From a virus: a stretch of 56,027 bases of DNA. The translations under genes were made by a program, and so were the position numbers. The notes beneath the pieces were generated by a model that was given only the letters and a program-made list of their open reading frames with translations, had not been told where the DNA came from and made no database searches. The stretch spans positions 1-56,027 of the IMG/VR virus record IMGVR_UViG_3300009285_001845. One strand, 5' to 3'. Below, one piece after another: positions 3,907 to 55,350 of the stretch (positions are counted from its first letter, which is position 1; each line of letters opens with the position of its first letter).

Positions 3907-4374
3907 TCAATGCGGCCTGAACCGCGTGTGCTTGTCCCGATCGGCGATACTCTCGATGACGACCCCGCCGTCGTGTTGTGTCGTCGGCCCGTCGTGCCCG
4001 GTCGGCCCCTCGTAGCCGCTCCCGCGCAGGTCCTTGTCAGAGAGCTTCTTGGGGATGAACTTCGCGATGTCCTTCGGCCGCTCGGCCTCACGGAAGCGGA
4101 CAGGGAGGCTGACCGTAATCACGGCCAGGATCCATCGGAGTTCGTCCTCGGAAAATTTGATAGCGGGCTCGAACCTAGCGAAGTACTGCTTCCCGAGACG
4201 GATGAACTCCGCGTCGCCACGGCGCACCATTAGCCAGCGACAGTGGAGGTCGCTGGACGCGATCAACGCCTTGGCGGCGCTCACAATCCACTTCCATCTT
4301 GGCCTGCCTAACACGTACGTATTGCTGGTACGCAGGGGAATGTGCGGCATCAGGTCTGTCAATGAAGCCTTCAT
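3907..4374 (-). CDS. hypothetical protein
   Basis: Has 155 residues from the ATG at 4374, which has GGAGG eight bases upstream and overlaps the stop of the upstream HNH gene (ATGA). It contains a central Trp/Arg-rich helical region and a Gly-rich C-terminal stretch (GPTGHDGP). No family recognised. A longer start at 4389 is possible, but the ribosome binding site favours 4374. Confidence 0.55.
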   Translation of the reverse strand: MKASLTDLMPHIPLRTSNTYVLGRPRWKWIVSAAKALIASSDLHCRWLMVRRGDAEFIRLGKQYFARFEPAIKFSEDELRWILAVITVSLPVRFREAERPKDIAKFIPKKLSDKDLRGSGYEGPTGHDGPTTQHDGGVVIESIADRDKHTRFRPH

Positions 4375-5162
4375 GCCACGTGCCTCCATGCACGGCCGGA
4401 CAGGATGTTGTAGACGGTCCCGATCTTGACACCGTGATGCTCGGCAATTGTCTTCACGGCGATTCCGTTGCTGCGTGCTAGGCGGATTTCATGGACGGCG
4501 GCATCGGTCAGTTTCGCGTAGTGGTTGTGTTCTCCGCGTGGGCTAGGGGCCCTCCGTCCTTTCCGGATCATGTCGTCGACGTTGTCCTGGTGGGTACCAA
4601 GAAATAAATGCGCTGGATTGCAACAACTTGGGTGGTCGCACTGATGGCAGACAAGCCGATCAGCAGGGATTGAACCGTGGGTGAGCACCCAGATGAGCCT
4701 GGTAGCTCTGATTTCTGGGTGACCTGGAAGAACCCAGAGACGAACAAAGCCGTAGCCATACCGACCCGTTGTGGCGATCCAGGGCCAACACTCGTTTGGA
4801 GTTCGACGGTCTACTTTTGACCACAACGAGCGTTCGAGTTGCCCCTTGAAGTGGGTCCAGACACTCTCTTGAAGTTCTTGAATGCTCAATGCGCGCGGTC
4901 GCCCCCTCGGGTGAGATCGCTCGCGCGGAGGATCGTTCTTGGAGTGGCCGAAACGATTGGAATACCGCGGGAGAGACAACGCCGCTGTAATTCTGGCAAT
5001 GGCGTCAGGCGTGTGCCGTTCTCCCTTTCGTGGCATCAGGCTATGGCCTTCGTCGTTCGCAGCGGAATCTGCGGCAGGAGCGGTGTCTGCATGGGGAGGA
5101 GCCGCGCCTAGTGTGCCAACTTTCTCTTGGGCCGTCAAGATGTTCTCCGTTTTAATGGACAT
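4371..5162 (-). CDS. HNH homing-type endonuclease with C-terminal HTH
   Basis: Has 263 residues. The HNH_3-type core is clear: CWPW near residue 130, then TRLIWVLTHG, VCHQCDHPSCCNPAHLFLG with its Cys/His metal ligands, and NVDDM. A helix-turn-helix-like end (VKTIAEHHGVKIGTVYNILSG) should bind DNA. The first 40 residues are low-complexity and Ala-rich and may not belong to the enzyme; ATGs further in (for example near 5036) are possible starts. It overlaps the upstream LAGLIDADG gene by 28 bases. Such enzymes usually spread themselves; no phage role is implied. Confidence 0.85.
   Translation of the reverse strand: MSIKTENILTAQEKVGTLGAAPPHADTAPAADSAANDEGHSLMPRKGERHTPDAIARITAALSLPRYSNRFGHSKNDPPRERSHPRGRPRALSIQELQESVWTHFKGQLERSLWSKVDRRTPNECWPWIATTGRYGYGFVRLWVLPGHPEIRATRLIWVLTHGSIPADRLVCHQCDHPSCCNPAHLFLGTHQDNVDDMIRKGRRAPSPRGEHNHYAKLTDAAVHEIRLARSNGIAVKTIAEHHGVKIGTVYNILSGRAWRHVA
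5109..5138 (-). promoter_or_regulatory. copy of recurrent motif CCCAR-N6-GTTGGCAC
   Basis: On the minus strand this 30-base stretch matches the one before terS (8471-8500) at 26 of 30 positions, starting TTGAC and ending GTTGGCACACTA. Here it lies within the first codons of the HNH gene. Function unknown; a binding site or promoter is inferred only from recurrence. Confidence 0.35.
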
Positions 5163-5788
5163 GCCGGATCTTGGTAATTAGCAGAACATTGGCAGTGGTA
5201 CTTGGCCTTGTGAGTTCGAAACCCCTGAGGCTGAGTAGCCTTCCACTGATGGATGACCTCTCTGATTCTGGCTCGGCGTCTGGCTCCAAGCAATGTGTAT
5301 AGAGTAAACATCCAGCCTATGGCCTGGGGGCCTCTCACGTGAAGGGTGTATTGTGTCTTGTAGCCATGCCCATTATCTGTTCCGGCTCTTGCGTACACTG
5401 ACTGAGCCCCAAACAATTGGGCTGCCTTTCGAACAACATCTTCATCTGTCATTGACAGGGCGATAATCACGCCTGCATTTTTCGGAAAACAGCCTTCACC
5501 TTCTACTAGCCCGGCAAGCCAACAGATTTCTTTCAGTGTCCGATGGCTGGTCCTAGGCGATGGTTGTAATTGGTACTTTGTCTTATACCGTTCTAGAGGA
5601 GGACAGCCCGGCAGTCTTCGAATATTGTAACGGCCGGTAATATATCGAACACCGTCTAAAAATTCGACCAAGACGCTGTTCATTTTGCCGAAGACAATCG
5701 GGCGGCAGTGTTCGCCAAAGCGTTCTGGGAGAAACTTTCTGACGCGCCAGTAGTGTTGAGGGCGAGTGGTAGGATTTGATTTAGCCAT
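5135..5788 (-). CDS. LAGLIDADG-type homing endonuclease
   Basis: Has 217 residues. WLAGLVEGEGCF near residue 90 is a LAGLIDADG helix with its acidic catalytic residue. It is followed by the expected beta-strand pattern (IIALSMTDEDVVRKAA, YTLHVRGPQAIGWM) and TLLGARRRARI. Only one LAGLIDADG motif is evident, so it probably acts as a dimer. This stretch looks poorer in G+C than neighbouring phage genes, which suggests recent arrival. It overlaps the following HNH gene and lies just downstream of the terL nuclease fragment. Confidence 0.82.
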   Translation of the reverse strand: MAKSNPTTRPQHYWRVRKFLPERFGEHCRPIVFGKMNSVLVEFLDGVRYITGRYNIRRLPGCPPLERYKTKYQLQPSPRTSHRTLKEICWLAGLVEGEGCFPKNAGVIIALSMTDEDVVRKAAQLFGAQSVYARAGTDNGHGYKTQYTLHVRGPQAIGWMFTLYTLLGARRRARIREVIHQWKATQPQGFRTHKAKYHCQCSANYQDPACPLKRRTS

Positions 5789-5874: not shown

Positions 5875-6678
5875 TCACGCCCACATCCACCCGTCGCTCG
5901 ACCCGTCGCCGCGCCCCCGGGTGAACCGGTCGAACGGATCTTTCTTGGTGTCCTGCCGTTGCGCGTACGTCGCCTCGGCTTCCGTCTTGAACTCGTTCAC
6001 GGGGAACATCTCGAGATACCGCGTCGGGTCGAGGCAGTGGTCGTTGGTCTTCACGATGCGCCCTTGCTCGTCCCGGTGATAGAGCCGGTATTCCTCAAAC
6101 CAGGGCTCGCAGCTGGCGAAGACCTTGAGCTTGCCCGTGCTCAGCGAGACCCAGGTTTTTTGCAGCCCGGTCTCGACCGCTTTATTCGCAAGTCGAAGCG
6201 TGAGCCCGAGCCCGCGATAAATCTTCAGGAACTGCTGGCCGTCGTACTTGTTAATGTCGGAGCAATCCCCGACACCAGGGATCCACGCGCCGCGTGCCTT
6301 GATCGCCTCCGCATGAATTGGTGGCTCCGCTTGGCTCCGCTTGTAGCAGGCATACAGATATCGAATGTTCGTCTCCCGATCGAGCGCCTCCCACACTGCG
6401 CCAAACCAGTTCCATCCGTGATCGAGCGAGAACGCCCGCGGCCAGTGGGCTGGGATTGGGAAGTCCGCAACCTTGATGTCTACTTCTGGGATTGGAAAAA
6501 TAGATCCCGATCCAAGTGCTGGGATTCCTTTCGACCTAGCGTCCCGCTGGTACGGAGGAATCGAATCCCAGAGCTCCTTCTTCACCTCGTCTGAGAGATG
6601 GCTACAGTTGTCCCAAGTTGCGAAGGTCACATGTTTCGACATAGACGTTCGGCGTCCGCGCGACGCTTGAGTAACCAC
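5875..6678 (-). CDS. terminase large subunit, C-terminal nuclease part
   Basis: Carries the RNase H-like headful nuclease of a P22-type terminase. Visible pieces are HLSDEVKKELWDSIP, RSKGIPALGSGSIFP, the first catalytic Asp in AFSLDHGWNW, the central CSDINKYDG and the final NDHCLDPTRY. The natural protein would continue from the ATPase half at 7267-7995, but an HNH gene lies between and the halves are in separate reading frames. Translation must start anew, perhaps at ATG 6642 (MSKHVTFATW) inside the 3' end of the HNH gene; no strong ribosome binding site is seen. About 255 plus 242 residues add up to a normal large subunit. Confidence 0.88.
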   Translation of the reverse strand: MVTQASRGRRTSMSKHVTFATWDNCSHLSDEVKKELWDSIPPYQRDARSKGIPALGSGSIFPIPEVDIKVADFPIPAHWPRAFSLDHGWNWFGAVWEALDRETNIRYLYACYKRSQAEPPIHAEAIKARGAWIPGVGDCSDINKYDGQQFLKIYRGLGLTLRLANKAVETGLQKTWVSLSTGKLKVFASCEPWFEEYRLYHRDEQGRIVKTNDHCLDPTRYLEMFPVNEFKTEAEATYAQRQDTKKDPFDRFTRGRGDGSSDGWMWA

Positions 6679-7280
6679 ACGAGTAACGGGGTGTCGTTCT
6701 TAGACGCATTGTTGCTAAACGATGTCACGCATAAGTTATCGAGAACGTGCGCGCCGCCACCCGAGAGAGGTACTACATGGTCGACAGTTGGTTTATCAAT
6801 CAAGTCTCCAGTGTAAGCATCAAGGTACTTATGCCCCACCCTGGATAACTCTAGGACTTGATGATAGAGGTTTGTTTGTGGTTCGGATGCAATAGCATCG
6901 AGCCGCGTATTCCGCCTAAACCAACTCTCGCGTTTCCATGCTGTGGACTTTCGAGGGTGTGTAGCCCTGTACGTCTGTGCGTATATACTGATGTGTTTTC
7001 TGTTCGCGGCCTGCCATTCCCGATTCCATTGACGTTGTTTCGCTTGAAAGACGTCTCCGCCATTACGCCTTCGGGCGTTTTGGTAATTCGCGCAACATCT
7101 CTTGCAGCGCGAGTGCAGAATAACGCTGCGCTTGCCTTGTTTTGTGGTGTAGGAATACCGCGAGAACTGCGATGCCGGTTTGATGTCCTTGCAATCGCTG
7201 CATCTCTTAGTAGCAACACGATCTGCCTTGGGGTTTGCGACCAACTCTTTGAGTTTGTGAGATTGCCTACTCCGTGGCAT
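6627..7280 (-). CDS. HNH endonuclease inserted in terL
   Basis: Has 217 residues: a zinc-ribbon N terminus (CSDCKDIKPASQF, later CKRCC), a basic middle and a typical HNH at about 165-200 (YTGDLIDKPTVDHVVP, then LDNLCVTSFSNNASKND). The gene exactly fills the gap between the two terL parts. Its ATG lies inside the last codons of the ATPase fragment and its stop inside the first codons of the nuclease fragment. Almost no extra sequence is left, so a group I intron core would not fit. The protein is not in frame with terL, so it is not an intein. Confidence 0.87.
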   Translation of the reverse strand: MPRSRQSHKLKELVANPKADRVATKRCSDCKDIKPASQFSRYSYTTKQGKRSVILHSRCKRCCANYQNARRRNGGDVFQAKQRQWNREWQAANRKHISIYAQTYRATHPRKSTAWKRESWFRRNTRLDAIASEPQTNLYHQVLELSRVGHKYLDAYTGDLIDKPTVDHVVPLSGGGAHVLDNLCVTSFSNNASKNDTPLLVWLLKRRADAERLCRNM

Positions 7281-7995
7281 GTGACGCCTGCCCTCCAGGC
7301 ATGAACGACAGTATAAACGGAGTGAGTCCCTGTAAAGGCGTCAGTGTGCAGAAAATAATTCCGTCGCAAGACATCGTTCTGACGAGTGCCTCTGTGTAGA
7401 TCGGGAAATCGGGCTCCTCGTCCATCCAGATGACTTCTTGCGCCGTCCCTTGGAAGGCTTCACGGCCCTCCATGTAGCTCCGGAAGCCGAGCACTGAATG
7501 TCCGCCGGTCGTATGGCGGACCCAGAGGGCTTCGATGGCGTCAGGCGTGCCTTGTTTTGCGGTGCGATGAATCAGGGTTTCAGGCGGAATCATGCCAGTG
7601 CCGTAGGCTCCAGGAGGTCCCACCAGTTTCTCTTGGACGATATCCCGTGTGGTGCGGGCGGTTTCACCGCACGCCCATGCTCGGACAGGTTGCGAAAATC
7701 GTCGTCCTTCCCACCACGGCGGATACCCGCCCGTGAGATGCACGGTCATCTCATAACTGCCAGCGGTTGACTTCCCAACCCGATTTCCGGCGATGAAAGC
7801 ACGTTCTCGGTGCTCCGCGCCAGCCGCGAAGAACTCGACGTGCTTCGGGTAGAGCTCGCGCCGGAACGGACCGTCGTCGGGGAAGATGGTCTGAAAGCGG
7901 CCGCCTTTGCGGCGTTCAAGCTCGGTCAGGATGGCGTTGCGGGCCGCTGCAGCCGCAGCGAGGGTGTCGGCGTGCTGCTCGAGGCCGCTGGTCAC
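7267..7995 (-). CDS. terminase large subunit, N-terminal ATPase part
   Basis: Has 242 residues with the complete packaging ATPase: Walker A GNRVGKST near 71, an adenine/arginine region around ACGETARTT, Walker B VIWMDEEP near 190 and the coupling motif CTLTPLQGLT. The frame stops after FMPGG plus a few residues, where an intact relative would run on into the nuclease domain. The GTG start overlaps the terS stop. The break lies at the inter-domain linker, so this half could fold alone. Whether the two polypeptides reassemble cannot be told from sequence. Confidence 0.9.
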   Translation of the reverse strand: MTSGLEQHADTLAAAAAARNAILTELERRKGGRFQTIFPDDGPFRRELYPKHVEFFAAGAEHRERAFIAGNRVGKSTAGSYEMTVHLTGGYPPWWEGRRFSQPVRAWACGETARTTRDIVQEKLVGPPGAYGTGMIPPETLIHRTAKQGTPDAIEALWVRHTTGGHSVLGFRSYMEGREAFQGTAQEVIWMDEEPDFPIYTEALVRTMSCDGIIFCTLTPLQGLTPFILSFMPGGQASHATE

Positions 7996-11373: not shown

Positions 11374-12171
11374 TTAGACAGGCTCATCACAAAGTTCCTC
11401 AACCATTTGCATCCGTCGCCCGATCCAGGCCATCACTGGTACCGCCATTGAATTGCCGAGCGCCTTGTAGCGCGGGCCATCGGCCGCCAACTTGCCCCGA
11501 TATGGAATCAGCGTGTAGTCGTCGGGAAAGCCCTGGAGGCGTTCGCACTCCCGTGGGGTGAGGCGACGAACCTGTATCCGGTGCATCACAATGCCGGGGT
11601 CGCCGTGCCGTCCTGTAATCGGCGGTGCCTGCTCCACGCGATAGCCAATGTCCGTATCGCCAGCCGTGTTCGCAAAGGCCACGGCTCCGACGCCGATGCC
11701 TGCCCGCCCGCCGTTCGGCGTCAGAATCGCGTTCGCTACGCCGTCCTGCCGATACTCCAAATCGTGCGAGCCGTCACGGCCACGAATCGCCAGCGTGAAC
11801 GGATGTTCGTGCATCGTGCCAGCGACGTCCGGCTTGCACTGGCTCCGATTCGCGCGGCTTGTGACTTGCCGCTCATCGAAGCACGCGACGAGCGGCGTCC
11901 CGCGTCCGGTCCCATCCTCCGACGCATCGAAGCCGTCAGCGCGGAGTGAGTGGGCGACTGGAATCATGTAACCAGCCGCAGCATGGTCTGCGCTGTTTGA
12001 CCATCCGCCGCCGCCACTGTTCGCCTTCAGGGTTCCGGCCACGTCAAAGGAACCCCCAATCGGAATCAGCGTCTCGCTCTCCGCATCGATCCGTCCCATC
12101 GCGCCCGCGTTCAGGCACAGAGCCACAGAAGGAAGATTCGTTCGTTCGTTCGTTCGTTCGTTCGTTCGCAA
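11374..12171 (-). CDS. C5-cytosine methyltransferase, C-terminal part (out of frame with 5' part)
   Basis: This frame supplies the C-terminal portion of a phage Dcm-type enzyme: repeated FDVAGTLKAN and ADGFDASEDGTGRGTPLV segments typical of the long variable region of such proteins, then motif IX RRLTPRECERLQGFPDDY and motif X GNSMAVPV. It joins the N-terminal frame only if the repeat at 12137-12168 has 7 or 10 units. With the present 8 it is separated by a frameshift and has no credible start of its own. Confidence 0.85.
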   Translation of the reverse strand: MRTNERTNERTNLPSVALCLNAGAMGRIDAESETLIPIGGSFDVAGTLKANSGGGGWSNSADHAAAGYMIPVAHSLRADGFDASEDGTGRGTPLVACFDERQVTSRANRSQCKPDVAGTMHEHPFTLAIRGRDGSHDLEYRQDGVANAILTPNGGRAGIGVGAVAFANTAGDTDIGYRVEQAPPITGRHGDPGIVMHRIQVRRLTPRECERLQGFPDDYTLIPYRGKLAADGPRYKALGNSMAVPVMAWIGRRMQMVEELCDEPV

Positions 12172-12853
12172 TTAACCCGCCATCGCAGTCGAAGTCGGTC
12201 CCGAGGCCACCGCCTCCAGTGCTGCGGCTAGGGACGGTGGGAGCGACTTCCCCCGCTTCGCGGCACGGCGCAGGATGCCCCGACAGGCTTTCGCGCTCAA
12301 AAAGAACCGCAGCGGCACGTCGCCAGTCTCCAAGATGGCCGACAACGAACACGCGCGCCCGTCGCTGGGCCAGGCCGAAGTACTGAGCGTCCAGCACTCG
12401 GTAGGCGAACCCATACCCGAGTTCTGCCAACCCTCCCAGGAAGGCGCCCAGCGCCCCTCCGTCGTCCGCTGACAGGACGCCAGGGACGTTCTCCCAGACC
12501 ACCCAGCGGGGCCGATAGCGGTCAGCGATAGCAAGATACGTGAGGGCGAGGTTGCCACGCGGATCATCCAAGCCTTTACGGAGTCCGGCGACGGAGAAGG
12601 ACTGGCACGGAGTTCCGCCGACGAGAACATCGACGGTTGCATCAGGCCAGTCGCGGAACTTGGTGATGTCGCCACAGTTCGGAACCTCTGGATAGTGATG
12701 GGCCAGCACGGCTGAGGGAAACTTCTCCACCTCCGCAAATGCCACAGCCTCAAAGCCAAACGGACTCCACGCGACGGAGGCCGCTTCAATACCGCTGCAC
12801 ACGCTCAAATACCTGAGTCGTCCCTCCGTCATCGCGCCGCCTGTCTCAGCCAC
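12044..12853 (-). CDS. C5-cytosine methyltransferase, N-terminal part
   Basis: Begins (GTG 12853 or ATG 12832) with motif I YLSVCSGIEAASVAW, then motif IV with the catalytic Cys GGTPCQSFSVAG, motif VI WENVPGVL and motif VIII QRRARVFVVG. After DGGLIA the frame enters a tetranucleotide repeat read as NERTNERTNE. It then runs into a meaningless arginine/glycine-rich end, because the real continuation is one base out of phase. Full length would be close to 490 residues. It methylates cytosine at C5, probably protecting phage DNA or mimicking host modification. Confidence 0.9.
   Translation of the reverse strand: MAETGGAMTEGRLRYLSVCSGIEAASVAWSPFGFEAVAFAEVEKFPSAVLAHHYPEVPNCGDITKFRDWPDATVDVLVGGTPCQSFSVAGLRKGLDDPRGNLALTYLAIADRYRPRWVVWENVPGVLSADDGGALGAFLGGLAELGYGFAYRVLDAQYFGLAQRRARVFVVGHLGDWRRAAAVLFERESLSGHPAPCREAGEVAPTVPSRSTGGGGLGTDFDCDGGLIANERTNERTNESSFCGSVPERGRDGTDRCGERDADSDWGFL
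12137..12168 (-). repeat. (CGAA)8 tetranucleotide tract inside methyltransferase gene
   Basis: Eight perfect units (TTCG on the plus strand, 32 bases). They lie exactly where the methyltransferase reading frame breaks. Because four is not a multiple of three, each gain or loss of a unit shifts the frame; 7 or 10 units would join the halves, while 8 and 9 do not. This is the structure of contingency-locus (phase-variation) repeats known from bacterial modification genes. Confidence 0.95.
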
Positions 12854-23477: not shown

Positions 23478-23761
23478 ACGCCCCTCAGCGGCGACGAAGG
23501 ATCGGTAGCCTGCCGTGCCTTGGCCTGACCGGTCTGCGCGCCTGTATCACCCTGCGGGATCGGGATGCCTGGCGGCGGCAGCATCGGAGGAGCGGCCTGC
23601 AGCGCATTCTGCATCTCAAGGAACGTGGCGTAGGGCACGACGACCGCCAGCGGCAGCGGACCATCGTGGACCACGAGCGTGGCCGTGAACTCCTTCTCCT
23701 TGCGGAGTTGGGTGATGGAAACGTGACGAATATTTGGATCGACGTACGGCATCTTGTTCAT
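23474..23761 (-). CDS. Phd/YefM-like small protein
   Basis: Has 95 residues. The first 60 residues (VSITQLRKEKEF, LPLAVVVPYATFLEMQ) resemble the strand-helix pattern of Phd/YefM antitoxins. The Pro/Gln-rich tail replaces the usual toxin-binding end. No toxin gene is adjacent. It may be a DNA-binding regulator or just share the fold. Confidence 0.5.
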   Translation of the reverse strand: MNKMPYVDPNIRHVSITQLRKEKEFTATLVVHDGPLPLAVVVPYATFLEMQNALQAAPPMLPPPGIPIPQGDTGAQTGQAKARQATDPSSPLRGV

Positions 23762-24411
23762 ACGGCACTCATTTCATGTTGTGGGGTTACTGACGACCTA
23801 CGGCGTGGATGACGGAGTCGGCGAAGCGAGTCCCATTCACGCGCGCACGGCTTACAGTACGGCGCTCGAATGCGTCCACCACCGAACTCAGTTAACGGTT
23901 TGCACTGTGTGCATCGCGGGCAAATCCTGTCGGTGTTTGGATTTCCGCCGGCTCGCGCAACCCTCGCTCGGACATGTAGGAGCATGTGGTACTCGTGGTC
24001 CTGACAGATCACAAGGTTTCGGTTGGCGTTGTCCCTGCGGTGCCCATTGACGTGATGAACTTCAGCCGGCGCCGCGAGAGGTCTGCCTAATGCGCGCTCA
24101 GCGACGACGACATGTTCCCTGCGACTTTTACCAACGCGCACGTACGATGGATGATCGACAGGGTTGCGCTTGAACGTGCTCAGGCACGCATTCGACGAAC
24201 AAAGCCGCTGTTGTGGATGTCGCGAGGTCGCGATAAACGGAGTCTTGCAGACGGCGCAGAGCCGTGGCTCACGAAATGGCGGCTTTCGAGTAGCGTTGTG
24301 ACCAACGACGAAGCGGCGGTACTCACCCTTGCGATAGCCGTTGCCGGTCTCATCAACAACGGTAGTCTGTTGACCGCAGCCGCACTGACACAAGCCAAGA
24401 GGAATCGTCAT
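23758..24411 (-). CDS. HNH endonuclease with zinc fingers
   Basis: Has 217 residues: CQCGCGQ, CAVCKTPF...CSSNAC and a final CPRCTQCKPL...CKPCA supply zinc sites. The nuclease core is RREHVVVAERALGRPLA, EVHHVNGHRRDNANRNLVI and HEYHMLLHVR. It is inserted between the PD-(D/E)XK nuclease and Phd-like genes with four-base overlaps on both sides, so it disrupts no gene. Confidence 0.87.
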   Translation of the reverse strand: MTIPLGLCQCGCGQQTTVVDETGNGYRKGEYRRFVVGHNATRKPPFREPRLCAVCKTPFIATSRHPQQRLCSSNACLSTFKRNPVDHPSYVRVGKSRREHVVVAERALGRPLAAPAEVHHVNGHRRDNANRNLVICQDHEYHMLLHVRARVARAGGNPNTDRICPRCTQCKPLTEFGGGRIRAPYCKPCAREWDSLRRLRHPRRRSSVTPQHEMSAV

Positions 24412-25796: not shown

Positions 25797-26792
25797 CTAC
25801 CCGTCCTCTCCAGGCTGCCGCTCCCCGCGGTCAAAAATCTCGCCCATCGTCACCGGCGGCTCGGTCCTTACCGGCTCCGCGTCCGCGATCGACACGCCCG
25901 CGACGTTGTAGTACGTGCGGCCTTCTTTCTCCGCCTCGGTGTAGGCCAGTTTGACCTTGTGCGTGGAGCCAGCGAAGAGCTTCACATCAGCCCACACGGT
26001 GTCATCGAACGTCGTGAACTTCTGCTCGCCAACGTAGACCGCGTAGGGCTTCTTCTGCTCGAAGATTTTGCCGATGACCCCGATGACGACCTTGGCGTTG
26101 GCGGGGATCGGCTTCGCGGTCGCGGTCCCGGTGGCCGACTTCCGCTGCGGTTGCTTGGGCTCGGCCGCCTTCGGTGCATCCTCGCTGGCGATGGACTCGC
26201 GCAGTTCGTCGGTCAGGTCCTCGAGGTCCTGGGCGAAGATGTCAGATGCGCCGAGCGCCGTCAGGGTGAGCGCCACGAGCGCCCGCTTGGTCGCCATCTT
26301 GAGGATGGTGTTGGCGACGTCGGCCGGGGAACTCCGGATTTGCTTGACCTTGTACGGGGTCGTGCCCTTCATCCACTTCTCACGGCGCATCGCAGGATCG
26401 GTGTCTTCCCACTCCTGGTCGCACACCGGCTTGACCCAGCGATATTTCATTTCCGAAGACGAGCACTCCCCGATCATCTCGCCGACGACCTCGCCGCTGA
26501 CCTGGTTGGTGCCGCGCATCGTGATGCGGTACCGCACTTCGTCTGGCGTCGACAAGTCCTCGATGCACGCCGGCGTCGCCGCGATCCGGAATGTCATCAG
26601 GAGCATCTCGGCGCCCGGCTTGTAGAGCGTGGGCTTGGGGGTGCCTGGAATCGTTCCGAAGTGCGTCCCCTCCCGCATCAACGCCTTCATGACCTCTTGG
26701 ATCCGAAGGACGCGCGTGATGACTTCGGTGGTTTGCAGGACGCCACGGTCGATCATGGCCGTGCCGCTACGTTCAAGAGCTTCGGTTGTCAT
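25797..26792 (-). CDS. candidate ssDNA-annealing/recombination protein
   Basis: Has 331 residues. [43 protein letters not shown] and the helix [15 protein letters not shown] are a recognisable set shared by many uncharacterised phage proteins that sit beside nucleases. The basic/Pro-rich linker is followed by a small beta domain ([14 protein letters not shown]). The position beside a PD-(D/E)XK nuclease suggests single-strand annealing, but this is context, not a proven family assignment. Confidence 0.5.
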
Positions 26793-27424
26793 GCTGATCT
26801 CCTTGTAAGGTCTCCTGACCAGTGCGGTCGCAGGCGCTTGAGGCTCGTCTGCGGCATCGCGAGTAGGCGCGCGGACTCAGAGAATGAGATGCGGGTGCCA
26901 GCGATGGTTATGAGACGGTAGTAGCTCCGTTCCTTGCGTCGGTTCTTGGTCTGCTCACTGCGCGTCGCCCATCGGCAGTTCTCTGGCGAGTACTGGCCGT
27001 CGTTGTCAATGCGGTCAAGCGAGTGCTCAGGAGAGGGGCGACGTCCCATGTCTTCGAGGAATGTCTCAAACGATTCGCGCCATCGCTCGCACACGTAAAT
27101 GCCACGCCCGCCATAGTGTTTGTACGACTTTGTCTTTGGGTTACAGCAACGGTCGAGCATATGCGCCCACGCCCTGTATTCAGGCGTCGTCGCACCCTTG
27201 ACGGTGTCCCCATGCGTACGTGGCCGCGCAACGACTTCGCGCATGAGACATCCGCATGAGCGGACGCGACCAGCGCTGAGCGAGTTGCTGGGTACAACGG
27301 TTTCGACGCCACAATCGCAACGGCAGCGCCATCGGGCCTCACGACTCTTCGTGCGCCCAACGCATTCCAGCGCAGTCAGTCGGCCATATCGTTGAGAAGT
27401 CCGATCTATGAACATCTCAGCCAT
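26789..27424 (-). CDS. HNH homing endonuclease (AP2-like zinc-finger type)
   Basis: Has 211 residues. [20 protein letters not shown] and VRSCGCL form the N-terminal DNA-binding part. [29 protein letters not shown] and [20 protein letters not shown] are the family's HNH core. The last 30 residues contain an HTH-like [14 protein letters not shown]. It belongs to the same family as the plus-strand gene at 46451-47248, so the phage has two relatives at distant sites. Confidence 0.88.
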
Positions 27425-30273: not shown

Positions 30274-30663
30274 ATGACACGAATGATCGCGCTCTCGCTC
30301 ATCCTGGTTCTGAGTATCCCCGCTGTATCGCTTCGAGCACAGGATGGGCCGATCGCCAAGAGCGCTAGGGCCGCACTCGTTCAAGGAAGCGGGCAGGCCT
30401 CGTCTGGCAAGGCCGGGATGTTCTGGGCTGGCATCGCGCTCATGGGTGCTGGTGCCACGATGAGCATCCTGGCGAATACTGCCCTACGGAAGGAGGAATG
30501 TTTTTTCTCGTTGACCTTCTTTTTCTGCGAGGAATCGCCCAATAAGGCCATGTGGGCGACTGGCGCAGCAATCGGCGCAACGGGCGGCATTCTCACGGCC
30601 ATCGGCGCATCACGGTCCATTGTGATTGGGCCCAATCGCGTCGGGTATCGACTGAGCTTCTAA
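30274..30663 (+). CDS. exported membrane protein, possible lysogeny gene
   Basis: Has 129 residues with a Sec signal (ALSLILVLSIPAVSLRAQ), two later hydrophobic Gly/Ala-rich helices (GMFWAGIALMGAGATMSIL; WATGAAIGATGGILTAIG) and a Cys pair between them. AAGGAG precedes the ATG at a good distance. It lies between repressor and integrase, where superinfection-exclusion or host-altering genes often sit; function unknown. Confidence 0.6.
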   Translation: MTRMIALSLILVLSIPAVSLRAQDGPIAKSARAALVQGSGQASSGKAGMFWAGIALMGAGATMSILANTALRKEECFFSLTFFFCEESPNKAMWATGAAIGATGGILTAIGASRSIVIGPNRVGYRLSF

Positions 30664-30668
30664 GGACA

Positions 30669-31781
30669 GTGCCCCTGAAGCGGCTGTCAACCGGCGTGTA
30701 TCTTGACCGTTATGGCATCCGGGCCATCGTCAACATCGCCGCCGGACGGAAAGAAAAACGGTTTACCCGAGATGCGTCCCTCCGCGACATCAAACGCTGG
30801 CGGAACGAGATGCGCGTCAAGCTGGAACGCCTGCACCCGAAGAAGCGCGCCGGGGCCCTCGCGCGCGGCACGTTCAGCGCCGACGTCAGGCGCTACCTCA
30901 AGACGCTGGCGATCGCGTCCTGGGCGTCCCGTCGCTCTGAGCTCCGCGCATGGGAAAAACGGTTCGGTCCTCTCAAACGTAGTCGGGTTAGCGCCGACCA
31001 TGTCACCGCCACGATCAAGGCGTGGACGGACGCCGAGGTGCCCCCAAAGACCATCCTGAACCGCATCCGTGCGCTGTCGGCGATGTATCACGCCGTGGAC
31101 GGCCGTGACGCCTGGACGCCCGTGGACGGCGTCTCGAGGCCGAAGGTGCGAACGCGGCGGCCGCTCCGGGTCTCCGTGGCGGTCCTCCGAAGTGTGGAGG
31201 AGCAGTTGCGCGCCGGCGACCAGAAGACACACGCGCGGTACATGGTGCTCATCGCCACGGGCGCGCGGCCCGTGCATCTCAAACGCGCCAAGCCCCGCGA
31301 CGTCGACCTTGTCGCACGCAGCTGGAATATCCCGTCCGCCAAAGAAGGTGACCCGATCGAGCTCTGGCTCAATGACGACATGGTGGCGGCCTGGCAGGCG
31401 TTCATCGAGGCCGATGCGTGGGGCGACTTCAACGCCCAGAAGCACGCGCAGGAACTGCGCGCCGCGGGCTGGCCGACGCATATTCCGCCCTACAACGCCA
31501 AGCACACCTTCGGACAGGAGCTCGCGGAGGCGGGGTTCAGCCGGGAGGACATCGCCGACTGGTACGGCCACACGAACCCGGAAACCACGAAGGTCTACTC
31601 GGGCACCGCGAACCTGCGGCGATTGAGCCAAGCGATGGACGGTAGGCTCGGATGGGGACGTCCCACCATGCCACGACCCAACCTGCTCGGGAATACTCGG
31701 CAGTTCAATGTTGGCAGCCTCTCGACCGATGAGCGCAAACAGTTGATGAATCAGTTGTTAGAGGAAATGCTCAAGTCGTAG
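30669..31781 (+). CDS. tyrosine-type phage integrase
   Basis: Has 370 residues from GTG 30669. It has an N-terminal arm-binding-like domain (GVYLDRYGIRAIV, KRFTRDASLRDIKRW), a SAM-like core-binding domain (RRYLKTLAIASW...) and a catalytic domain with Arg in ATGARPVHL near 199, Lys in IPSAKEGD, box II as PYNAKHTFG near 273, His in ADWYGHTNPETT and the nucleophile Tyr in KVYSG near 308. In box II the usual His and Arg are Tyr and Lys, an uncommon pair. It should insert the phage at a host attB. Confidence 0.88.
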   Translation: MPLKRLSTGVYLDRYGIRAIVNIAAGRKEKRFTRDASLRDIKRWRNEMRVKLERLHPKKRAGALARGTFSADVRRYLKTLAIASWASRRSELRAWEKRFGPLKRSRVSADHVTATIKAWTDAEVPPKTILNRIRALSAMYHAVDGRDAWTPVDGVSRPKVRTRRPLRVSVAVLRSVEEQLRAGDQKTHARYMVLIATGARPVHLKRAKPRDVDLVARSWNIPSAKEGDPIELWLNDDMVAAWQAFIEADAWGDFNAQKHAQELRAAGWPTHIPPYNAKHTFGQELAEAGFSREDIADWYGHTNPETTKVYSGTANLRRLSQAMDGRLGWGRPTMPRPNLLGNTRQFNVGSLSTDERKQLMNQLLEEMLKS

Positions 31782-32908: not shown

Positions 32909-32984
32909 GCCACCGTAGCTCAACTGGCAGAGCAGCCCTTTCGTAATGGGACGGTTGCGGGTTCGATTCCTGTCGGTGGCTCCA
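32909..32984 (+). tRNA. tRNA-Thr (anticodon CGT)
   Basis: Acceptor GCCACCG pairs with CGGTGGC; D-arm GCTC/GAGC; T-arm GCGGG TTCGATT CCTGT; encoded CCA. The anticodon loop TTCGTAA has T33. The anticodon stem GCCCT/TGGGA has only three good pairs, with mismatches at both ends, which is weak for a working tRNA. Confidence 0.85.
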
Positions 32985-33048
32985 CTCCCTCACTAACTCC
33001 CAGTCGATCCTCATACGCACGACCGCGCTCGTAAAGAGCGCACCGCGC

Positions 33049-33133
33049 GGAGGGTTGTAGCGGAATTGGTATCGCCCCTGTCCCGAAAACAGACGCCTTC
33101 ACAGGCATAGAGGTTCGAATCCTCTACCCTCCG
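33049..33133 (+). tRNA. tRNA with long variable arm, probably Ser (anticodon CGA)
   Basis: Acceptor GGAGGGT/ACCCTCC; a D-arm with GCG/CGC; anticodon stem CTGT/ACAG around loop CCCGAAA; variable stem GCCT/AGGC; T-arm AGAGG TTCGAAT CCTCT. No CCA is encoded. Position 33 is C, not U. The D-arm looks Leu-like, so the identity is less sure than the fold. Confidence 0.75.
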
Positions 33134-33140
33134 CCCATCT

Positions 33141-33217
33141 TGGGATGTAGCCGAGTCTGGCAAGGCGCTCGCCCTGGGAGCGAGAGACCGCTGGTTCGAA
33201 TCCAGCCATCCCAACCA
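33141..33217 (+). tRNA. tRNA-Pro (anticodon TGG)
   Basis: Acceptor TGGGATG/CATCCCA, anticodon stem CTCGC/GCGAG around loop CCTGGGA (anticodon TGG, G37 as usual for Pro), T-arm GCTGG TTCGAAT CCAGC and encoded CCA. Position 33 is C. Confidence 0.88.
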
Positions 33218-33219
33218 TC

Positions 33220-33296
33220 GGGCCACGTAGCTCAATTGGTAGAGCGTCCGCCCCGCAAGCGGAAGGTTGCGAGTTCAACTCTCGCCTGGTCCACCA
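33220..33296 (+). tRNA. tRNA-Ala (anticodon CGC)
   Basis: Acceptor GGGCCA pairs with TGGTCC (one G-U; bases 7 and 66 are unpaired). D-arm GCTC/GAGC; anticodon stem TCCGC/GCGGA around CCCGCAA; T-arm GCGAG TTCAACT CTCGC; encoded CCA. Position 33 is C again. Confidence 0.83.
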
Positions 33297-33297
33297 C

Positions 33298-33382
33298 GGA
33301 GAGCGTCCGGCTGGTCGAGGAAGGCGCCCGCTAAGCGTTCTGCCCGCAAGGGTCACAGGTTCGAGTCCTGTGCTCTCCGCCA
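33298..33382 (+). tRNA. tRNA-Ser (anticodon GCT)
   Basis: Acceptor GGAGAGC/GCTCTCC, Ser-type D-arm, anticodon stem GGCGC/GCGTT (two G-U pairs) around loop CCGCTAA, long variable arm with GCCC/GGGT, T-arm CACAGG TTCGAGT CCTGTG and encoded CCA. Position 33 is C. It ends two bases before the convergent gene. Confidence 0.85.
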
Positions 33383-47518: not shown

Positions 47519-48997
47519 TCAGGCCGCGTCCGCCTCCGCGTCAATCGACGCATCGCGCCAGGCGTGGTCGGTCGGTTCGCTCGTCGCCACCTCGATCACC
47601 CAATCGTTCCCCTGTCCGAGCCGATTGATTTCGGCGCGCGTGCCGTACTGCCCCAGCGCCCCGGTGCCCATCAGGAGTTCATTGGAGTAGGTTTTTCCCC
47701 CGTCCACGCTGTACTTGAACATGACCTGCGGGTTGCTCCCCTGCCCCGTCGTCGCGGCGACACCCGCATCGCAGTCCAGCGCGAAGCGGTTGATCGTCAT
47801 CGACCGTTGCGGAACAAAGACGTGCGGGGCCCGCCGCACCCGGCGGATCGGATCGCCGTTGGCGTTATCGACATCGAGGTCGTCGTAGTAGGCGTCCGCC
47901 CGCAGCTGGTAAATCTTGCCGTCCTTCCGACTCCCGACGAGGTGCTTGTCGCCGAAGGCGAACGTATGGCAGCGCCCAAGGTGCGCTTCCTGCTCGCCGG
48001 TCGCAGGATTGAGATACCCCAGCTCGAACCAGATCGGCGGGTTCGTCGTCATGTTCGCCGCCCACGTCGCCTCTTCGGTCAGGAACGACACGACGAAGAG
48101 GAGCTGTCCGCGATAGAGCATCGTCCAGCACACGGCATCATCGGTGCGAGCGTAGGTCGACCAGATGTCCTCAACCCCGGGATGGCTGAACGGCACTGGG
48201 TTCAGGTTGACATCCCAGTACGCCCGACCTTTGCCGTGCTCGTTCTGCCCGATCCACGCCAAGGAGTTGTGGACCTTCGCAATTCCGGCAAACGGGTCGA
48301 TCCCGTGCTCGATGATGAGTTGCATCGGCGCAAAGGTGACAAGCGAATCCCCTGTGTTCTTCCACGGCTCAATCGTCTTGCTGCCGATCAGGTAGATCGT
48401 CTTGTTCATGACCGAGAGGTTCCGAATGTTGTCCGTCGTCTGCGCCTTCTGAAACACATCGGTGGAACCCCAAGACGTGCCATCAAACAGGTTCGAGTAG
48501 TTGACCTGACGGGTCTGGTACCCGACCGCGAGAAAGTAGCCATCCGAGAAGGCAATGGCCTGCACGTTGTCTGGAAAGTCGCTGTCGGTGATCTCGGCCC
48601 ACACGGAGGTCGACCAATTCCAGATGTAGCCGCTTCCGCCGCTACTGAACATCGCCTGCGATCCGCCGCTGCCGTTGACGGCGATCTGCGCCGGGAGTTG
48701 GCTCGCGGCCACATCCCCGAGCTTGGTCGCGCCGCCGGCTGCGGTGATCTGGTACGCCTCCGTGCCGCTGATGCAGAAACAGCGGTTATCCTCGTACTGG
48801 ATGGCGCGGATGGGACCGTTGCCGGCTGTGGCAAACAGGCGCGAGCCGGGCGTTGGCAGGAAGACCAGCGGCCCTGGCGGGCGGCTGCCCGGCACACCGG
48901 CCACGACGGGAATAAAATTGAGACACTGTTCCACCCCGAGCCGCGGGGATCGGTGGCGATAGGTACCTCCGATGAAGCCCTGGAACGGAATTATCAC
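47519..48997 (-). CDS. P22 gp10-like packaged-DNA stabilisation / tail hub protein
   Basis: Has 492 residues. The N terminus QGFIGGTYRHRSPRLGVEQC, NFIPVVAG and LPTPGSRLFATAG follows the gp10 pattern; the rest is a beta-propeller-like series (AIQYEDNRCFCISG, YIWNWSTSVWAEI, TIYLIGSKTIEPWKN, YARTDDAVCWTMLYRG) ending in a strand-rich domain. In P22 gp10 binds gp4 and the needle and closes the filled head. Order gp4-gp10 is preserved, with an endonuclease between. Confidence 0.82.
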   Translation of the reverse strand: MIIPFQGFIGGTYRHRSPRLGVEQCLNFIPVVAGVPGSRPPGPLVFLPTPGSRLFATAGNGPIRAIQYEDNRCFCISGTEAYQITAAGGATKLGDVAASQLPAQIAVNGSGGSQAMFSSGGSGYIWNWSTSVWAEITDSDFPDNVQAIAFSDGYFLAVGYQTRQVNYSNLFDGTSWGSTDVFQKAQTTDNIRNLSVMNKTIYLIGSKTIEPWKNTGDSLVTFAPMQLIIEHGIDPFAGIAKVHNSLAWIGQNEHGKGRAYWDVNLNPVPFSHPGVEDIWSTYARTDDAVCWTMLYRGQLLFVVSFLTEEATWAANMTTNPPIWFELGYLNPATGEQEAHLGRCHTFAFGDKHLVGSRKDGKIYQLRADAYYDDLDVDNANGDPIRRVRRAPHVFVPQRSMTINRFALDCDAGVAATTGQGSNPQVMFKYSVDGGKTYSNELLMGTGALGQYGTRAEINRLGQGNDWVIEVATSEPTDHAWRDASIDAEADAA

Positions 48998-49794
48998 GCG
49001 AGCTTTTCCTCTGTAGTTGTCTTGAGATAGGCCGTTGCTGCGCGCACGAATGCTTCGTCTTCAAGCGCAGCCAAGCGTGTGTTGCATCCATAGCACAGCA
49101 ATCCACGCACGGTGCCACTAACATGGTGGTGGTCAACAACCAACGGCAATGTTCCGGACTCATAACTGGGCGTCGCTCGACAAATCGCACACGCACCAGC
49201 CTGTGCAACTACGAGAGCGTCGTAGTCGTCCAAGGTGATTCCGTAGTTCTTTCGGAGCGCCTGATCTCTCGCTTTTGTCTTGTTGTACTGAGTCTTCTCG
49301 CAACGTAGCCGACAATCCTTACACCGGCTTGAGAGTAAATCGATGGCTGACGGAGCCTTAGAGAACTCCGTCGATGGTTTCCTTTCGTGACACGTGCTGC
49401 ATGTCTTATGGGCTGGAACCACACGGGCGGTCTTCCTTCGCCGCTCCAACCACCCATGTCCGTGCGCGAGCTTGCACGCACGGCACCACCCGCTGACACC
49501 CAGCCTGTACCGCTTGTCGGCGTAGAAGTCTGACAGCGACTTCGATTCATGACAGTGAGAGCACGTTTTTGTAGTTGGAGGGTCACTGGGCACGATACTG
49601 CGCGGCTGCTCAGTGGCCGCGAGCCGCTGTTGTTTGCGTTTCTCCCACCACATCCGGCAATATGCACTCCGACAGGTTTTACACCATGGATCGAGATTCC
49701 CCCTGTTTCCCCGATCTTGGCGACGCTGATATTCAGATACCGACTTGGTCTCGCCGCACTTTCGGCACTGCTTCATCGTGATGTCCCCAATCAC
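48994..49794 (-). CDS. endonuclease VII-type (HNH) mobile endonuclease
   Basis: Has 266 residues. Three tandem zinc ribbons (CRKCGETKSVSEY, CSHCHESKSLSDF, CSTCHERKPSTEF) precede the nuclease domain LRKNYGITLDDYDALVVAQA, CAICRATP, LVVDHHHVSGTVRGLLCYGCN, a recombination endonuclease VII fold. Inserted between gp4- and gp10-like genes with four-base overlaps. It could resolve branched DNA but its location in the tail operon fits a homing gene better. Confidence 0.85.
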   Translation of the reverse strand: MIGDITMKQCRKCGETKSVSEYQRRQDRGNRGNLDPWCKTCRSAYCRMWWEKRKQQRLAATEQPRSIVPSDPPTTKTCSHCHESKSLSDFYADKRYRLGVSGWCRACKLAHGHGWLERRRKTARVVPAHKTCSTCHERKPSTEFSKAPSAIDLLSSRCKDCRLRCEKTQYNKTKARDQALRKNYGITLDDYDALVVAQAGACAICRATPSYESGTLPLVVDHHHVSGTVRGLLCYGCNTRLAALEDEAFVRAATAYLKTTTEEKLA

Positions 49795-52481: not shown

Positions 52482-52879
52482 GTGGCCATCCGTTGTATCG
52501 TCGGGCTTTGTGGCATCCGCGTCGCCACCTGGCCGGCCAGTGACACCGCCTCGTACACGTGTCCGGTCTGCAACTGCAAGAGTGCTAAGTTGATCTCGCC
52601 AACCGCTCGCCCGACGATCTGTTCCTCACGGGATCGCCCCGGAGCTTGAGCGAGACGGATCCCGGTTTCGTACGCCTCCGTGGCGAGCGCCTCGTCGCCA
52701 TCGATCACGTACTGTTTCCCGAGGTTGATCCACGGCCTCGGCTTGAGTGGCGCGTGGGCCGCGGCGTCGACCCACAGCGCCGGTTCATTCGTCCACAGAG
52801 GGACCCGCTCCTGGCTGGTGATGACGGTCCAGAGGACCGCCACCACCACCACCGCCGCGATGCGGACCCCTCGCCACAT
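52454..52879 (-). CDS. membrane-anchored TPR protein, possible partner of the glycosyltransferase
   Basis: Has 141 residues from MWRGVRIAAVVVVAVLW (membrane helix), then VPLWTNEPALWVDAAAHAPLKPRP, NLGKQYVIDGDEALATEAYE and NLALLQLQTGHVYEAVSLAG, two TPR units. Trp-rich linker followed by TPRs equals the C-terminal part of TMTC-like proteins. The start overlaps the upstream stop (TGATG) and the stop overlaps the enzyme gene by 28 bases. Confidence 0.6.
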   Translation of the reverse strand: MWRGVRIAAVVVVAVLWTVITSQERVPLWTNEPALWVDAAAHAPLKPRPWINLGKQYVIDGDEALATEAYETGIRLAQAPGRSREEQIVGRAVGEINLALLQLQTGHVYEAVSLAGQVATRMPQSPTIQRMATWIGAHQSE

Positions 52880-53385
52880 CAGCCCGTCCGGTTGAAGCTG
52901 TCCCATGTCAGGGGCAGCGTGTTGGTCCCGCGCCATCGGCTGTTCGACGCCATACAGTTCCAGATGTTGCCGTTGCTGGTATTCACCCACGGTTGGATCG
53001 CGGCCTGCCCGCTGCCGCGCGTGCAATCCTGCGAGAAGTCCGGATCCACCTGCTTGAAGTCGTTGTTCTGCGCAGTGACCAGGATATTCGTCGCGTTATC
53101 ATGCGCCCGCTGTTGGGTCCCGTCCACGCCGCGGCCAATACGGATCAGCGTGGCAGTGCCAGCGGCACCACCAATCAATTCCTGGATCCGCACGACTTCC
53201 CAGTCGATCAGCACGAGTTGTCCCACGACAAAGCCCGTGGAACTCGTGACCGTCATCGTGGTGTCGGTCGCAGCCAGGTTCGCGTTCAGCGTGGTTGCCG
53301 TCAGGAGCCGCTGCGCCTGGGCTGGCAGAGCACTGAGCAGCAGGAGTGCCGCGGCAGTGCTCAGCATCCGCATCGTTGTTTTCAT
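52879..53385 (-). CDS. secreted beta-rich protein
   Basis: Has 168 residues from ATG 53385, with AGGAAGGAG five bases upstream. Sec signal MKTTMRMLSTAAALLLLSAL, cut near AQAQ; then TATTLNANLAATDTTMTVTS and FVVGQLVLIDWEVVRIQEL, a beta domain of a type usual in phage structural proteins, with two Cys pairs in the second half. The same frame is open upstream into the GIY-YIG gene. A signal peptide on this domain is odd and may put it in the host envelope as a glycosylation substrate (inference). Confidence 0.65.
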   Translation of the reverse strand: MKTTMRMLSTAAALLLLSALPAQAQRLLTATTLNANLAATDTTMTVTSSTGFVVGQLVLIDWEVVRIQELIGGAAGTATLIRIGRGVDGTQQRAHDNATNILVTAQNNDFKQVDPDFSQDCTRGSGQAAIQPWVNTSNGNIWNCMASNSRWRGTNTLPLTWDSFNRTG

Positions 53386-54123
53386 CACTGTCTCCTTCCT
53401 GTTTCGATGCGGGTGTCGTCGTGCCACCTCATCGGCTTTACGTTCTGGCGTCAGCGACGCCCACCATGCGCGTTTCTTTTCAGCGATTTGTCCGCCTTGA
53501 TTGAATCCGCGCCGGCTGACTTCAAACGCCTTTTGCTCTGGCGAGAGAGATGCCCACCAAGCGCGCCGATGTCGTGAGTTGGCGTGTCTTGCTTCCGGAG
53601 TGTTTCGCGTCACCTTCAGCCGCGCCTTCGCTGCTTCCGACCACGGAATGCCCTTGTTCCTGGCTTCACGCACAATACCGCTGGCTTCTTCGCGTGCGCG
53701 CCGTTTGAGCTGGCCCTGACGGCATGCTTCTCGAAAGTCCTCAGTCATGACCTTCCCCTTCGACCATGGCACCCGCCCAGTATTGGCGCGAGACATGATC
53801 GCGCGCTGCTCTGGCGGCATCTGCCAACCGTAGTTGCCAGGCCCGCCCCCAGCGATGTTGTAGCCGTTGGGCGACAGTGCACCTCGTTCGAGAATCAGTC
53901 GGCGTTCGAGTTCGACCAATTCCTCGTACGTGGTGGCCGTGGCCAACGGCTCGATGCGAAATGCCTTCGCGCCGTACGTCCGCATCGCGTTGTACAGCGG
54001 CGTCGTCAGACCGTGCCGAAACGCAGCCTGACGATGCCGAGCCATCCGTGAGGCAAGCGATCGGACGGTGATGCCGACGTACTCTTTGCCCGTGATCGTG
54101 TTGAGGATGCGATAGACAGTCAT
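52879..54123 (-). CDS. GIY-YIG homing endonuclease, frame continuous with the secreted protein
   Basis: From ATG 54123 (AGGAGG eight bases upstream; ATG 54129 also possible). The GIY-YIG part is VYRILNTITGKEYVGITVR, with LASRMARHRQAAF and TYEELVELERRLIL, followed by NUMOD3-like repeats (SRANTGRVPWSKGK, RRAWWASLSPEQKAFEVSRR, KKRAWWASLTPERKADEV). No stop occurs before the ATG of the secreted protein at 53385, so ribosomes could make a fusion of about 414 residues. The endonuclease proper is about 54123-53386. Confidence 0.85.
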   Translation of the reverse strand: MTVYRILNTITGKEYVGITVRSLASRMARHRQAAFRHGLTTPLYNAMRTYGAKAFRIEPLATATTYEELVELERRLILERGALSPNGYNIAGGGPGNYGWQMPPEQRAIMSRANTGRVPWSKGKVMTEDFREACRQGQLKRRAREEASGIVREARNKGIPWSEAAKARLKVTRNTPEARHANSRHRRAWWASLSPEQKAFEVSRRGFNQGGQIAEKKRAWWASLTPERKADEVARRHPHRNRKETVMKTTMRMLSTAAALLLLSALPAQAQRLLTATTLNANLAATDTTMTVTSSTGFVVGQLVLIDWEVVRIQELIGGAAGTATLIRIGRGVDGTQQRAHDNATNILVTAQNNDFKQVDPDFSQDCTRGSGQAAIQPWVNTSNGNIWNCMASNSRWRGTNTLPLTWDSFNRTG

Positions 54124-54135
54124 GTGCATCGCCTC

Positions 54136-55350
54136 CTATGAAGTTACGCGGCAACAAAAATCCCCGTACATCTGCTTGCCGCCGAAGAGCACGTCCGCCC
54201 GGCAGAGTTCCTTGTTCTTCCGGATGTCGTACCCCTTCTCGATGCGGATGGAGAGGCCGAGCTGCGGCAGTTTCGCCCGAGCCGACATATCCAGCCCCTT
54301 GTGCAAGGGCAGATCGACGAACGCCGCCGTCATCCACTCCTTGTGGAACCCGAGACCCTGACGGGTTGCGGTGCTTGCGTAGGAGCTAGCGTGTCCGAAG
54401 ATGCGCACCGCCCCGTCGTTGGTCGGCGCGGCGGAGACGTTCTGGTAGGCCCCGGAGAGCACGATCGACGGCGAGATGTTGATCGTCATCTGCCCTGAGC
54501 CGTTGGCCGTCCCTGCTGCCGTGACGGTGAACTGCCGCAGGTTCCCGGTGGAATCCTTCGACATGGGATTCACGCCGTTGCTGCCTGCAAAGTCCACGAT
54601 GTCGCCTTGGGCGATCGCGCCCGTCGTCGCCGTCCAGCCGTCGGTATCGATGGTCGTGCCGTCCTGCGATGCGCCGTTGATGAGTGGCGTGCCGCCGAGC
54701 GCCCCAACGGTGTGGGATCGGATGTTCTGGTTGAAGGCGAACTCGAACCCGAGCGCGTAGCCCATCTGCCCCGTGCGGTACTGCTCGGCAATCGAACCAG
54801 CCGCTTGGAACAGCCCCTGCAGCGCGTTGATGATCGTCGCCTGCATCTGCGGGCTGATGATCATGGTGCGGTCGCCTGGTGGGACGCCGTAGTCCGACAT
54901 GGTGACGCCGGCGTTCAGGTACGTCTGGGTGGAGGTCGGCACGGTGCCCGGGGTGCCTTGGAAGTTCGGCACGTCCAAATACCGCGTCGCGAAGAACCGA
55001 TCGATGCGGTTGGCGATGAACGCCATCGACGTGTCGAGGTAGCGGCCGCGGAAGTCGTCCACCTTGAGCGTGAGATCGACGTCGGAGAAGCTGAGGTCTT
55101 GCCCTTCGAGCTGGTCGATGACCAGATCGACGGACTGTTCCTCGATGTCCTCCTCGTTCATCTCCTCGCCCTGCCGGCCCTGGACGCGAACCGGGTAGCG
55201 GATCCCGAGCGTGTCGCCGATCTTCTTGCCGTCCCGGGCAAACTTCGCTTCGTAGCGTCGATTGATTTTTTTGGTGATCGTGAGGTTGTTCTCGACAATC
55301 ATCAACGATTCTTTGGCGATGATGTCGTCGGTTAGGATGACGTTAGCCAT
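54136..55350 (-). CDS. major capsid (coat) protein, P22 gp5-like
   Basis: Has 404 residues: ILTDDIIAKESLMIVENNL, INRRYEAKFARDGKKIGDTL, VQGRQGEEMNEEDIEEQSVD and FSDVDLTLKVDDFRGRYLDT are the N-arm and early-core pattern of P22-type coat proteins; MIISPQMQATIINALQGLF and a beta-insertion-like middle follow. It builds the capsid shell with a scaffold. AGGGG lies eight bases before the ATG. It is followed directly by the GIY-YIG gene. Confidence 0.9.
   Translation of the reverse strand: MANVILTDDIIAKESLMIVENNLTITKKINRRYEAKFARDGKKIGDTLGIRYPVRVQGRQGEEMNEEDIEEQSVDLVIDQLEGQDLSFSDVDLTLKVDDFRGRYLDTSMAFIANRIDRFFATRYLDVPNFQGTPGTVPTSTQTYLNAGVTMSDYGVPPGDRTMIISPQMQATIINALQGLFQAAGSIAEQYRTGQMGYALGFEFAFNQNIRSHTVGALGGTPLINGASQDGTTIDTDGWTATTGAIAQGDIVDFAGSNGVNPMSKDSTGNLRQFTVTAAGTANGSGQMTINISPSIVLSGAYQNVSAAPTNDGAVRIFGHASSYASTATRQGLGFHKEWMTAAFVDLPLHKGLDMSARAKLPQLGLSIRIEKGYDIRKNKELCRADVLFGGKQMYGDFCCRVTS

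Follow-up and report, generated by a model that had tools for sequence, protein, structure and literature searches.

Four of five tRNAs in a phage array carry C in place of U at position 33

Five tRNA genes are encoded on the plus strand at positions 32909-33382 of the virus record IMGVR_UViG_3300009285_001845, in the order Thr-CGT, Ser-CGA, Pro-TGG, Ala-CGC and Ser-GCT, and in all of them except Thr-CGT the base at position 33 is C. Elongator tRNAs are taught to have an invariant U33, a rule from which four of the five array tRNAs depart. The window that was analysed is the entire virus record, 56,027 bases with a GC content of 61.6%. The array is extreme in its share of C33, which is far above the phage average.

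Whole-window ARAGORN returned the first four tRNAs, whereas the fifth was called by a lenient run on the sub-region. The tRNA-Thr(CGT) gene (32909-32984; loop TTCGTAA; 3' end TCCA) scored 54.4 bits against the cloverleaf model RF00005, and in the register scan described below its anticodon stem had two mismatches, at 27-43 and 31-39. The tRNA-Ser(CGA) gene (33049-33135; 31.6 bits; loop CCCGAAA; C33 at 33083) has a class II variable arm and the 3' end GCCC, with no encoded CCA. A perfect 5-bp anticodon stem and an ACCA end were present in both tRNA-Pro(TGG) (33141-33217; 64.6 bits; loop CCTGGGA; C33 at 33174) and tRNA-Ala(CGC) (33220-33296; 54.7 bits; loop CCCGCAA; C33 at 33253). The weakest of the five calls was the class II tRNA-Ser(GCT) (33298-33382; loop CCGCTAA; C33 at 33329; GCCA end), which reached 28.2 bits against the tRNA clan (tRNA-Sec model), below the gathering score; base pairing is present in all its stems (acceptor, anticodon, variable and T), and the gene encodes CCA. 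The RF00005 gathering score was exceeded by the other four tRNAs, and CCA is encoded in every array tRNA except Ser-CGA. Ser-GCT is overlooked at default settings, which is a warning for annotation tools. The acceptor stem of Pro-TGG (33141-33217) starts with T1-A72, as in tRNA-Gln, where bacterial tRNA-Pro usually has C1-G72, and an anticodon switch is possible.

As originally predicted, C was found at position 33 in four of the five tRNAs, and T only in Thr-CGT (at 32941). This was confirmed with ARAGORN, the RF00005 alignment and a register scan, in which each anticodon loop was slid by 1-4 bases in both directions and the stem pairs were counted. The RF00005 alignment set C opposite the U33 of the model in Ser-CGA, Pro-TGG and Ala-CGC. 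The C33 register gave 4-5 stem pairs in the four C33 tRNAs, and any T33 register gave at most 3; no T33 register with a better stem was found by RF00005, lenient ARAGORN or the register scan.

The frequency of C33 in viruses was assessed in two samples of IMG/VR tRNA contigs, obtained with patterns that leave out the anticodon loop, which were pooled and made unique. The resulting 1150 tRNAs comprised 1098 with T33, 47 with C33 and 5 with A33 or G33, so that the non-U bases were nearly all C. Raw counts of pattern matches put C33 slightly too high, because some matches were tRNA-Trp one base out of register. The proportion of C33 depended on the GC content of the contig, with 10/679 (1.5%) below 45% GC, 13/239 at 45-55%, 9/119 at 55-65% and 15/113 above 65% (37/471 at 45% or more versus 10/679 below; P = 1.5e-7). 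For viral contigs of at least 55% GC, C33 was present in about 1 tRNA in 10 (24/232; 10.3%). At this background, the chance of at least four C33 tRNAs out of five would be approximately 5e-4, a value uncorrected for the choice of this array by its odd look. Of the 97 viral contigs from which four or more tRNAs had been sampled, none had 50% or more C33, the maximum being 4/12 (33%). Scans with Pro and Ala C33 patterns were biased by design and served only as a source of examples. C33 was also present in cultured phages of Mycobacterium, Rhodobacter, Caulobacter and roseobacters, including Val-CAC and Val-GAC of the Bxz1-like mycobacteriophage LinStu, 4 of the 28 tRNAs of RcXuper, tRNAs of CcrRogue and DSS3_MAL1, and Ile-GAT of roseophages (loop CCGATAA). 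At one corresponding site, the roseophages EE36phi1 and DSS3phi2 carry tRNAs that resemble each other in their bodies, an Ile-GAT tRNA with C33 (CCGATAA) and a CAT tRNA with U33 (CTCATAA); in this pair, the anticodon change accompanies the change of base 33.

Among 345 unbiased tRNAs from contigs of at least 45% GC, T to C changes numbered 30 at position 33, 5 at position 54 and 3 at position 55. Two large syntenic viral arrays, L294 and L296, carried C33 in 10/35 and 12/37 tRNAs, respectively, with C33 common to both in five tRNAs. When 32 tRNA pairs from these arrays were compared (75% identity), the number of differing pairs was 9 at position 33, 5 at position 32 and 7 at position 38, against 1 for T54, 2 for T55 and none for C56 and A58; the pairs are best matches with the same anticodon, and those at 64-70% identity may include non-orthologous pairs. 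Flips between T and C at position 33 are thus as frequent as changes at variable loop positions, while T54, T55, C56 and A58 are near-constant, and U33 therefore appears to behave as pyrimidine 33 in GC-rich phages. In the Caulobacter phages Rogue, Magneto, Colossus, PW and RB23, which represent several genera, one copy of Ile-GAT keeps C33, with base 32 changed to T in two of the five phages; the second Ile-GAT copy retains U33 in those of the examined loci that have one. C33 was unevenly distributed among isotypes (Val 9/25 and Ala 5/21, versus Arg 2/64, Met 0/40 and Gly 0/23). This bias, high in Val, Ala and Asn and near zero in Arg, Met and Gly, was reached by none of 2000 permutations, and was only partly visible in a smaller replicate (8 C33 among 135 tRNAs at 45% GC or more). 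In the first unbiased set, C33 was not significantly overdispersed among contigs (417 of 2000 permutations), and therefore no general phage-level C33 trait is claimed.

One identical pattern was applied to viruses and bacterial chromosomes. It matched 8 C33 and 139 T33 tRNAs in viruses, versus 2 C33 and about 1610 T33 in 199 Pseudomonadota genomes (~0.1%; the T33 total was scaled up from a mean of 8.05 for the first 41 of 200 genomes) and 7 C33 and about 1144 T33 in 118 Actinomycetota genomes (~0.6%; extrapolated from 13 genomes). Four or five of the 7 Actinomycetota C33 tRNAs belonged to one Thr-GGT lineage. The genomes at the centre of the samples had been picked for a C33 match, and those matches were left out of the counts. 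With the C33 pattern only, 3 matches were obtained in 59 Acidobacteriota genomes, and in a scan of 85,000 genomes with a C33 pattern the matches listed were mostly Val-TAC, Met-CAT and Ala-TGC. Chromosomal C33 exists, but is rare, and phage tRNAs have C33 about 10-50 times as often as chromosomal tRNAs. The array loops differ at position 33 from this chromosomal background, which represents three sampled phyla that may not include the host. The occurrence of C33 in tRNAs of the host lineage had been named as evidence that would count against the original prediction; C33 was very rare in the chromosomes of the three phyla, outside which the host may lie. C33 tRNAs were present in arrays on three chromosome contigs without clear phage genes. 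The possibility that chromosomal C33 arrays are prophages received no support from the contigs examined. A second array with a C33 majority (8 of 13 tRNAs) was seen on a 3.5-kb contig of an Actinobacteria metagenome-assembled genome, and many Bacteroidales chromosomes (eight loci) appear to hold a Val-TAC tRNA with C33 (CCTACAA).

Codon usage was calculated from 25 phage ORFs (9,383 codons). ACG accounted for 48% of Thr codons and GCG for 42% of Ala codons, TCG and AGC made up 29% and 25% of Ser codons, and CCA and CCG together 76% of Pro codons, with CCG read by wobble with Pro-TGG. The most frequent Thr, Ser and Ala codons of the phage (ACG, TCG and GCG), plus AGC and CCA/CCG, are thus covered by the array anticodons. 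The proposal that the array reads codons in an unusual way was not supported, as all five anticodons fit the preferred codons of the phage by standard reading. This match is the picture that would be expected of codon supplementation, but it falls short of proof because GC content alone favours some of the matched codons. In the unbiased set, unpaired stem symbols averaged 1.18 in C33 tRNAs and 1.39 in U33 tRNAs of the same contigs (P = 0.64). With intact stems, CCA in four of five and the codon match, the array tRNAs look functional.

The explanation that we favour over selected escape from nucleases, with confidence and doubt in equal measure, is that these are working decoding tRNAs in which the requirement for U33 is relaxed to a pyrimidine (Y33). 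The array would then consist of ordinary decoding tRNAs that supplement translation of the preferred codons of the phage, and its members would be expressed, charged and used for decoding with C33, retaining a U-turn good enough for this purpose. Under GC-rich mutation pressure, T33 would drift to C33 and back, isotype by isotype, since C at 33 is a single transition from U that such pressure would favour. Older in vitro work, by Bare in 1983 and Dix in 1986, reportedly found that C at position 33 is not lethal to decoding. A U33C change in yeast tRNA-Gln gave a phenotype interpreted as poorer decoding or charging (PMC3664417), changing base 33 lowers decoding according to Santos 1996 as cited in that article, and in a human mitochondrial tRNA the formation of t6A was not prevented by U33C (PMC7102964). 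At the level of sequence, the established part comprises C33 in well-formed tRNAs, the codon match, the recurrence in other phages, the GC dependence and the free exchange of T and C. As C33 also occurs in chromosomal arrays without clear phage genes, a conflict between phage and host is not required to account for it. Against relaxation of U33, simple GC drift leaves the excess of T to C changes at 33 over T54 and T55 unexplained, although unequal tolerance would explain it; the isotype bias is not explained by tolerance alone; and the Ile-GAT paralogue with C33 has been kept across several genera of Caulobacter phages.

A possible, but more tentative, explanation is that C33 has been selected because a change at this position protects the phage tRNAs against host anticodon nucleases that recognise the U-turn or cleave adjacent to base 33, and translation would thereby continue while host tRNAs are cut. 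It has been proposed that phage tRNAs whose anticodon loops are altered at nuclease sites act in this manner (PMC10264068), and PrrC cleaves 3' to the canonical U33, as does RloC (PMC2610378). Selection is also favoured by the predominance of C among non-U bases at 33, by the excess of C33 in phage tRNAs over chromosomes, by the persistence of the C33 Ile-GAT alongside its U33 paralogue in Caulobacter phages, and by the C33 share of the window array. Drift would account just as well for the GC dependence and for the frequent T/C exchange between relatives, however, and no tRNA repair gene was recognised among the scanned phage proteins. It also counts against selection that the C33-rich isotypes (Val, Ala, Asn, Glu, Lys and Ile) do not correspond to the targets of any nuclease known to us. 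AriB, for instance, cuts at 40-41, distant from 33 (PMC12409363). The original prediction is supported in part: the nuclease resistance that it suggested is compatible with the data, in that C33 alters the base 5' of the PrrC cut and T to C is favoured over other substitutions, but a tolerated substitution would explain equally well the rise of C33 with GC, its ready exchange with T between relatives and its presence in chromosomal arrays. The present data do not separate tolerance from nuclease selection: C specificity at 33, the Caulobacter phage paralogue pair and the four of five in the window lean toward selection, and the GC trend, free flips and chromosomal arrays toward tolerance. A broader proposal, which we consider doubtful, is that C33 would be a general convergent adaptation by which phages of GC-rich hosts hide whole tRNA sets from U-turn-recognising nucleases at a tolerable decoding cost; if so, the window would be the most complete case seen.

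It is unlikely that the C33 tRNAs serve outside decoding, as decoys that occupy nucleases or synthetases or in another RNA function, with U33 being dispensable. Ser-CGA lacks an encoded CCA, Ser-GCT scores low and a weakened U-turn would reduce decoding, but the encoded CCA in the other four tRNAs, the intact stems and the fit of the anticodons to phage codon preference argue for decoding, and the stems of C33 tRNAs are preserved as well as those of U33 tRNAs. C-to-U editing of tRNAs occurs elsewhere, and post-transcriptional editing of C33 to U33 by a host or phage deaminase would make the mature tRNAs ordinary and account for the free T/C exchange in the genes; this is highly improbable, as no tRNA deaminase was recognised among the scanned phage proteins and the cultured phages with C33 have diverse hosts. 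An artefact, whether from a misplaced register, a sequencing error or defunct tRNA genes, for which the two stem mismatches of Thr-CGT and the sub-gathering Rfam score of Ser-GCT might be cited, is scarcely credible, because the stem is lost in every T33 register and the same change recurs in independent cultured phages.

Natural exceptions to U33 include C33 in the eukaryotic initiator tRNA and G33 in Candida tRNA-Ser(CAG); both are single specialised tRNAs, whereas the window has several elongator isotypes with C33 in one genome. Anticodon loops unlike those of the host were described for tRNAs of cluster C1 mycobacteriophages (van den Berg et al. 2023, eLife 12:e85183), where the loop alterations are linked to particular VapC cleavage sites and the phages avoid Ser-CGA; the window phage, in contrast, encodes Ser-CGA with C33, and position 33 is not mentioned in the main text of that study. 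Dense same-strand arrays are also known from the tRNA array units of mycobacterial chromosomes, plasmids and phages (PMC5966550) and from viral tRNA clusters (PMC6409571), in which the term U33 is absent and compared with which the window array is short. In phages that escape retron-Eco7, PrrC or PARIS, phage-supplied tRNAs replace cleaved host tRNAs, with no link to position 33 in the available parts of those reports (PMC11555353; PMC12409363). A search of the open full-text literature, with subscription papers and supplements outside its scope, found no report of the C33 pattern in phage tRNAs. If phages routinely replace U33, natural phage tRNAs would provide many independent tests of the role of U33 in decoding, as well as a simple and general hypothesis for how phage tRNAs could evade anticodon nucleases. 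Whether C33 is merely tolerated or protects against host anticodon nucleases is now a testable question.

Virion proteins, a terminase, a tyrosine integrase and a P22-type coat protein (54136-55350) were recognised in the window, and no end repeats were found in its 56,027 bases. The integrase gene (30552-31781, plus strand; PF00589, 2.3e-9; PHROG integrase, 5e-19) lies upstream of the tRNA array and shares its strand, while nearly all other recognised phage genes are on the opposite strand. No near DNA relative of the window phage was found among the sequenced phages searched. Protein searches returned one relative for the coat protein (30%), none for a 1271-aa virion protein, and one for the integrase (42%), which was without tRNAs. 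The best match of the coat protein (37%) was to a Xanthomonas phage, a weak hint as to host identity. The terminase large subunit is in two pieces (7267-7995 and 5875-6678), between which lies an endonuclease VII/HNH-like ORF (6627-7280), as if the terminase gene had been invaded by a homing endonuclease. A DNA methyltransferase/primase-like protein is divided between the overlapping ORFs 12044-12853 and 11374-12171. Homing-type endonucleases (HNH, endonuclease VII and GIY-YIG) are unusually numerous (4371-5788, 23758-24411, 26789-27424, 48994-49794 and 52879-54129), and one of them directly adjoins the coat protein gene.
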